Assembly (NCBI RefSeq): GCF_900105255.1 | Contig: NZ_LT629763.1 | Span: 2,852,001-2,916,000 of the forward strand | Reading direction: 5' to 3' | DNA: 64,000 nt | Origin: Halopseudomonas sabulinigri | GTDB taxonomy: Bacteria > Pseudomonadota > Gammaproteobacteria > Pseudomonadales > Pseudomonadaceae | Shown here: positions 39,437 to 42,202 of the stretch, piece after piece | Numbering within the stretch: the first letter of the stretch is position 1 | How the letters are laid out: every line of letters starts with the position of its first letter | The notes under the pieces: model-generated | Databases searched by the model: none | Told to the model about the DNA's origin: nothing | The model's input: the letters and a program-made list of their open reading frames with translations, nothing else | Translations under genes and position numbers: made by a program

Positions 39437-40033
39437 TCAGCGGCTGATGCGGTAAATCGCCACTTCGCCCAACAGGTTCGGCCACAGGCCGCTCAGCCAG
39501 CTGCGCTGGTGCGTCTGATCTACGACCAGGCGGTCGAGCACCTTGATGTTGCGCTCGCGGCATAGCTGCTCAAAATCCTTGAAGGTACAGAAGTGGATGT
39601 TGGGCGTGTTGTACCAGGTATAGGGCATGAATTCGGATACTGGCATACGCCCCTTGGTGCCCAGATACCAGCGGCAGCGCCAGTGGGCAAAATTGGGGAA
39701 GGTCAGAATGCCTTCATGGCCAATGCGCAACATGTCTTCCAGTACCCGGTCGGGGTAATGCATGGCCTGCAGCGATTGGGTCATGACCACAGTGTCGAAG
39801 CTGTTGTCCTCGAAATTGTTCAGCTCCTTGTCGAGGTTCTGCTCCAGCACGTTCACGCCGTGGCGGATGCAGGTGCTGATTTTCTCCGGGTCGATTTCCA
39901 GGCCATAACCCTGAACCTGCTTGTGGTCGCGCAGGTGGCGCAGCAGTTCACCCTCGCCACAGCCCAGGTCAAGCACGTGGCTGCCGGGTTTTATCCACTG
40001 TTGAATGATCTCCAGATCGGCGCGCAGGCTCAT
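39437..40033 (-). CDS. metW: methionine biosynthesis protein MetW
   Basis: A 198-residue methyltransferase-fold protein. The SAM-like motif [15 protein letters not shown] at about residues 20-34 is followed by a class I fold; ends with [17 protein letters not shown]-like sequence typical of MetW. It is required together with MetX for homoserine acylation in pseudomonads and its ATG overlaps the metX stop by 4 bases. Confidence 0.97.
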
Positions 40034-41172
40034 GCGGTCACCTCTATACGGTTCATATAGCCGCTGAGGGCTTCGATGTAACGGGGAATCGGCAGCAGAA
40101 AGGCGTCGTGCCCCTGCGCCGCTTCGATCTCCAGATAGCTCACCTGCTTTTTCGCCGCCAGCAGCGCATTGACCAGTTCATACGAGCGCGCAGGCGAGAA
40201 TCGCCAGTCGGTGGTAAAGGACATCACCAGCGTCTGTGCCTGAATACCTGCCAGGGTTTTCGCCAGGTCGCCGCCGTGTGCGGCGGCCGGGTCGAAATAG
40301 TCCAGCGCCTTGGTCATCAGCAGATAGGTGTTGGCGTCGAAGCGGCCGGAAAATTCCTGGCCCTGATAACGCAGGTAGCTTTCCACCTCAAACTCGACAC
40401 TGGTCAGGTCGTAGTTGAGCTGCTCGCTGCGCAGTTCGCGGCCAAACTTGCTGCCCATGGAGTCGTCCGACAGGTAGGTGATATGCCCGACCATGCGCGC
40501 CAGCATCAGGCCGCGCTTGGGAATAACGCCAAAGGCGGCATAGTCGCCGTGGTGGAAATCGGGGTCGGTGGTAATAGCCTGCCGCGCCACTTCGTTGAAG
40601 GCGATGTTCTGCGCCGACAACTTGGGCGCTGTGGCAATGGCCACACAATGGCGGATGCGCTCGGGGTAGCTGATCGCCCACTGCAGCGCCTGCATGCCGC
40701 CCAGACTGCCGCCGACCACCGCGGCCCATTGCTGCACGCCCAGCACGTCGGCCAGACGCGCCTGGCTGTGTACCCAGTCCTCTACGGTCAATACCGGGAA
40801 GCTGGCGCCATAGGCCTTGCCGGTTTCCGGGCTGATGCTGGAAGGGCCGGTGGAGCCGTGGCAGCCCCCCAGGTTATTCAAACTGACGACAAAGAAGCGG
40901 TTGGTGTCGATCGCCTTGCCGGGGCCGATGCAGGAATCCCACCAGCCGGGTTTGCGCTCATCGGCACTGTGGTAACCGGCAGCGTGGTGATGGCCGGACA
41001 GTGCGTGGCAGATCAGCACTGCATTGTCGGCAGCGGCGTTGAGCGCGCCGTAGGTTTCGTAAACCAGCTCGTAGGGCGCCAGGGCCTTGCCGCAGGTCAG
41101 CTGCAGCGGCTCGCTGAAGCTGTGTCGCTGGGGTGTCACCAGGCCGACGGAGTCAGCAGCAAATGTGGACAT
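40030..41172 (-). CDS. metX: homoserine O-acyltransferase MetX
   Basis: A 380-residue alpha/beta-hydrolase-fold enzyme that acylates homoserine in methionine synthesis. The nucleophile is in [12 protein letters not shown] (Ser at about 161), with catalytic Asp in the [12 protein letters not shown] region and His in GHDAFLLP near residue 360. In Pseudomonas, MetX is reported to use succinyl-CoA, so the name homoserine O-succinyltransferase is plausible; sequence alone does not prove it. The 149 bases before the start show no SAM riboswitch that I can recognise. Confidence 0.95.
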
Positions 41173-41321
41173 TAATACCTGTTCCTGTGTGGGTTGGCCT
41201 GGTCTGATACGGACGGCATAGCTGCCTGGCAGGCCCTGTCTGGCGGCGGGTGCGCGACTGACCAGTACGGCGCCAACAATCGAGGCGTCAGTCTAAAGAG
41301 CGCGCTGCGCTGGTGCAATAT

Positions 41322-41615
41322 TCAGGGCCGCTGGATACCCAGTTCTGCTGGCAGTTGCTGCGGCGCGTGGATGGCAATCCGCTTCTGCCGGCTGCTCTGA
41401 CCGCTGAGCAGGCTGACCTGCTATTTGCTGACGGCGAAGGCATCGGCCAGAAAGGCCAGCAACAGGCTGTTGGCCTTGCCTTCCACCGGCGGAGCGCTGA
41501 TGCGCACCTTGAGACGCTCACCGTGCAGCCCGGCAAAGCCGATTTGGCTGGCGCCGGGTTGCAGGTGCAAGTTGAGCAGCAGCGTCTCGCCGCGCCAGCT
41601 GTAGAACGCGGTCAC
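41322..41615 (-). pseudogene. yggU: YggU/DUF167 gene interrupted by an in-frame amber codon
   Basis: Reading from GTG 41615, which directly follows the yggT stop, 64 residues match DUF167 (SWRGETLLLNLHLQPGAS, then ISAPPVEGKANSLLLAFLADAF). A TAG follows at 41421-41423. Past it the same frame continues for 32 codons with the expected family C-terminus, QVSLLSGQSSRQKRI, to a TGA at 41322-41324. The full 97-codon length equals the family norm. Thus one base change has broken the gene, or the stop is read through, or the base is a sequencing error. YggU function is unknown in any case. Confidence 0.85.
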
Positions 41616-42202
41616 AGCGCCAGCGTCAGACCCTTGGGCATGCCGGTGGCAATCGCCATGTTGGTGATGACCAGCATGTTGAGCAGATTGAGCGCGATGA
41701 AGGCAAAGATGGGCGACAGATCCAGCCCGCCCATGGAGGGCAGAATCTTGCGGATCGGCGCGAGAACCGGCTCGCACAGCTGATTTACCAGCATGGCCGC
41801 CGGATTGGCGCTGCCCGGGGCAACCCAGGACAGGATCACACTGATGATCAGGGCGAAGAAAAACACCTTGAGGAAGAGGGCGGTAATCCCCACCAGCGAC
41901 CAGGCCAGCAGCTGCAGAATGCCCGGCAGAGCGTAGCCCATCAATTTGATGATGATAGCCATCAGCACCAGTTGGATCGCCAGCGCCAGTACCAGGGAGG
42001 CGAAGTCGACCCCGGCGTAGCCGGGGATGACCCGGCGCAGCGGCATCAGCAGCGGTTTGGTGGCACGCACGATGAACTGCGACAGCGGGTTGTAGAAGTC
42101 CGCACGCACCAGTTGCAGGATAAAGCGCAGTAGTACGATCAGCAGATACAGGCTGCCGAGGGTCTGCACAATATAGATAGCTGCCATGTTCAGGCCGGTC
42201 AT
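41612..42202 (-). CDS. yggT: YggT family membrane protein
   Basis: A 196-residue protein made of two similar YggT repeats, each with two membrane segments and the motif NPLSQFIVRATKPLLMPLRRVIPG-like, seen at about residues 38-60 and again at 135-155 (NQLCEPVLAPIRKILP). The family is linked to osmotic/ion homeostasis or Z-ring placement in other bacteria, but the role here is unproven. It lies between proC and yggU; the yggU GTG overlaps its stop. Confidence 0.93.
   Translation of the reverse strand: MTGLNMAAIYIVQTLGSLYLLIVLLRFILQLVRADFYNPLSQFIVRATKPLLMPLRRVIPGYAGVDFASLVLALAIQLVLMAIIIKLMGYALPGILQLLAWSLVGITALFLKVFFFALIISVILSWVAPGSANPAAMLVNQLCEPVLAPIRKILPSMGGLDLSPIFAFIALNLLNMLVITNMAIATGMPKGLTLAL

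Follow-up and report, generated by a model that had tools for sequence, protein, structure and literature searches.

YggU belongs to the DUF167/UPF0235 family of proteins (PF02594, TIGR00251), for which structures have been solved (1N91/1YH5, 1JRM, 9UNT). With regard to function, our literature search on YggU returned remarks on gene neighborhood only. Ten entries in the PDB (9UNT, 9VYQ-9VYW) stem from one and the same UPF0235 protein, PF1765; an accompanying paper was not found, and the entries suggest that work on the family's function is in progress. In gammaproteobacteria, the arrangement yggS-proC-yggT-yggU is common. Absence of yggU beside a retained yggT has been described for Leptospirillum ferriphilum (PMC6396713). 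In-frame stop codons in bacterial genes have been treated by Belinky et al. (2021; PMC7918605), who argued that many of them are tolerated or read through. Their case is based on stops shared between species, the analysis having been limited to such shared stops in order to remove artifacts. They reported TAG/CAG in-frame variants in conserved genes and a tendency of such stops to be short-lived.

In Halopseudomonas sabulinigri, the common yggS-proC-yggT-yggU neighborhood is present and the yggU frame is interrupted. In the stretch analyzed here (64,000 nucleotides of contig NZ_LT629763.1, termed the window), this frame occupies positions 41322-41615 on the minus strand and comprises 97 codons, running from a GTG at 41615, which overlaps the TGA of yggT, to a TGA at 41322 (codon 98). 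Its upstream neighbor is an intact yggT (41612-42202, minus strand), its downstream neighbor an intact metX (40030-41172, minus strand). The translation starts with VTAFYSW, reaches AVSK immediately before a TAG at codon 65 (41421-41423, minus strand) and, if this codon is read through, continues as QVSLLSGQSSRQKRIAIHAPQQLPAELGIQRP up to the TGA.

When read through, the protein gives a whole-domain match to DUF167, and PF02594 spans the single TAG with an E-value of 8.4e-23 and 82.5 bits (cut-off 30.9). TIGR00251 is matched with 87.4 bits (cut-off 35) and the solved relative 1N91 at 6.6e-20, while the cut-off of the narrower model NF003466 is missed (93 vs. 138). The gene thus passes the PF02594 and TIGR00251 cut-offs, although its frame, unlike that of an ordinary DUF167/YggU gene, is broken at codon 65. 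In an alignment with 20 congeners, the sequences stay colinear before as well as after the TAG, and the match is far beyond chance. Translation, profiles and alignment thereby bear out the frame given in an earlier note on this DNA as well as its statement that both halves keep family sequence. A 156-codon ORF on the plus strand (41313-41783), antisense to yggU, appears to be a shadow cast by the coding strand in this GC-rich DNA. The genome (4,030,103 bases, one contig) contains exactly one DUF167 copy; a backup copy covering a loss of yggU was considered and rejected, as a second DUF167 match does not occur genome-wide.

Among the 20 aligned congeners, the position of codon 65 is taken by CAG in six cases, by CGN in six, by CAA in four and by AAC, GGC, CCG and ACG in one each; a stop occurs in none. 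CAG is present in one of the two sister species (G010), in three genomes of the surrounding clade (G002, G006, G033) as well as in G023 and G027, and the other sister species (G013) carries CGC. The comparison with close relatives that had been proposed earlier thus yields sense codons in both sisters. By parsimony, the ancestral codon was most likely CAG (Gln), a single C-to-T transition away from TAG. The earlier expectation of a serine codon holds in so far as Ser is the usual residue here in the wider Pseudomonas, but this residue is unseen in the genus, where Gln or Arg predominate, and Gln (CAG), as in the sister species G010, is the likelier predecessor.

In our view, the TAG probably (about 0.78) goes back to a recent nonsense mutation of the ordinary kind, most likely from CAG, in a dispensable yggU situated between yggT and metX. 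According to this reading, a single C-to-T change would have converted the glutamine codon 65 into TAG, translation would stop after 64 residues with loss of the last third of YggU, and the gene would have become an early pseudogene, in line with repeated loss of yggU across the genus. The probable CAG to TAG change, the otherwise preserved gene and the apparently recent date resemble the nonsense codons described by Belinky et al. (2021), whereas the stops in that study were shared between species and the yggU TAG occurs in no relative.

Loss of the gene is common in the genus. A strong YggU match was obtained for 21 of 37 genomes, including the present one, and 16 gave none, so that the description of yggU as fully conserved in the earlier note was wrong for the gene. 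Nineteen of the 21 matches are intact over the matched frame and the remaining two carry different stops, i.e., the TAG at codon 65 reported here and a TAA at codon 5 in the sister species G010, which represent separate events on the tree. An intact gene (19 congeners) and a sense codon at the affected position are therefore found in relatives, as befits a pseudogene that arose by nonsense mutation. In G010 (locus L109, yggU at about 1070-1360), a draft assembly, the in-frame TAA is independent, and translation might start anew at codon 13, which is a GTG. Strains of the same species were not encountered in our scan of a genome collection, which returned only relatives with protein identities of 70% or less.

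In 14 of the 16 genomes without a match the yggT-metX junction could be read. In all 14, yggT is followed by metX without yggU, and the gap amounts to 29 to 284 bases vs. about 400-720 otherwise. One of these junctions (G031) contains a yggU-like fragment with a local score of 73, compared to 48 for the best of 40 shuffles. In G034, compared to its intact relative G002, yggU is missing while the block upstream of metX is kept. This block contains, in the present genome, the promoter-like sequence TTGCAC-17-TAGACT (41290-41318, minus strand; read by eye); the sequence or close variants of it recur in similar blocks across species (loci L111, L112, L129, L130), even where yggU is deleted, and 41290-41318 is probably the metX promoter.

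Mapping of intact and lost states on a tree of 34 species derived from yggT and metX required eight changes, or six if only well-supported branches count; as this tree is unrooted, such counts by themselves are compatible with gains as well as losses. The shared position of the gene, the intact outgroups and the fragment in G031 favor losses. It thus appears that yggU was lost several times within the genus, usually by deletions that spared yggT and metX. The situation is reminiscent of Leptospirillum ferriphilum, where yggU is likewise missing beside a retained yggT, with the difference that here a single genus allows the losses to be counted, one of them being at the stage of a point mutation. 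Beyond this genus yggU may also be widely lost: in the wider taxonomic family, 196 of 398 sampled genomes gave a profile match to PF02594.

The dN/dS ratio of yggU against the sister species G013 is 0.13, with most intact pairs lying at about 0.08-0.15. The part following the TAG has diverged no more than in intact pairs, and the two halves are about equally preserved. By both measures, the gene lies inside the span covered by intact pairs, as a recent mutation would lead one to expect. Three YggU residues differ at columns that are invariant in the genus; since two of these, V37 and E45, also occur outside the genus, the three changes constitute weak evidence for relaxed selection. On the basis of these comparisons the nonsense mutation looks recent. 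Of the options offered in the earlier note, a very recent change agrees with the sense codons of the sister species, the equal preservation of both halves and the repeated loss of the gene in the genus.

When the protein is modeled with the TAG read through (mean pLDDT 92), a helix is predicted at residues 47-59 and strands at 5-8, 11-19, 26-31, 34-38, 67-71 and 77-83. The stretch before the TAG, whose 64 codons remain translatable (41424-41615, minus strand), accounts for the first four strands and the helix, while the untranslated remainder (41322-41420, minus strand) holds the last two predicted strands and the conserved residues S71, G72, R76, K78 and R79, of which G72, R76 and K78 are invariant in 26 aligned sequences. 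As the missing third comprises the last two DUF167 strands and the conserved C-terminal motif, the 64-residue product is probably non-functional and yggU probably an early pseudogene, as far as model and alignment can tell. That the truncated protein acts as a functional short YggU would fit the preserved start and first 64 residues, but without the two strands and the three invariant residues, and with none of the relatives examined encoding a form that ends near codon 65, we regard this as extremely improbable. A single wrong base in the assembly, hiding a sense codon such as CAG in an intact yggU, is easier to envisage, given that one transition separates TAG from the codon present in close relatives and that both halves look fully preserved. 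We nevertheless rate it as unlikely. The assembly is a single contig with 99.99% completeness, and the frequent loss of yggU in the genus sets a high prior for a real nonsense mutation. In addition, the 58 orthologous frames scored in the window feature no other convincing internal stop. Comparison with frames of G013 and G010 flagged several stops; those inspected were located upstream of likely start codons, in stretches that are open in the sibling only by chance. Among the roughly 60 genes of the window, to which this survey refers, yggU looks to be the sole interrupted one, which renders generally poor sequence unlikely and is still compatible with one wrong base. General sequence decay or poor assembly was accordingly rejected as an explanation.

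The earlier note had also offered a read-through codon. ARAGORN assigned sense anticodons to all tRNAs at 44 Rfam hits, a list that lacks tRNA-Ile(GAT) and tRNA-Ala(TGC), both of which rRNA operons should contain, and is thus incomplete; the suggested search for amber-suppressor tRNAs was therefore negative among these hits. Release factor RF1 is present and intact, PylS has no match reaching its cut-off, and TAG terminates 7 of 58 window genes. Neither a suppressor tRNA nor a reassigned TAG, as would characterize a recoded gene, is thus indicated by the tRNA hits, RF1, PylS and the window's stop codons, and recoding was on this basis discarded as a candidate. The stop itself is unique to this genome among the 20 congeners compared, while a read-through codon would be conserved; with the TAG in no relative, read-through cannot draw on conservation as an argument. 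A related proposal is that of a tolerated or regulatory stop, at which a near-cognate tRNA (e.g., tRNA-Gln) reads UAG at a low level so that some full-length YggU is made. The preserved downstream frame is in agreement with it, since read-through would likewise lead to a low dN/dS such as that against G013, and so are the TAG/CAG variants in conserved genes (Belinky et al., 2021). Against it speak the lack of a counterpart in any relative, where Belinky et al. relied on shared stops, the folding of the RNA downstream of the TAG, which was no better than that of shuffled sequences (z 0.46 and 0.28), and the intact RF1, the ordinary use of TAG as terminator and the failure to find a suppressor tRNA among the tRNA hits. 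We therefore deem it very unlikely. Also very unlikely is the idea that the amber codon has become fixed in the species and that low-rate read-through renders YggU a rare, dosage-tuned protein; if true, it would mark an intermediate step on the way from retention to loss of yggU.

By itself, the nonsense mutation favored here carries little weight, as it would be just one further recent nonsense allele. Its significance lies in the genus-wide pattern: yggU, the gene of a small, widespread but functionally uncharacterized protein, would be dispensable in this genus, where it has apparently undergone several losses next to intact yggT and metX genes. This repeated loss offers a natural comparison for the role of YggU and the reasons for its dispensability.
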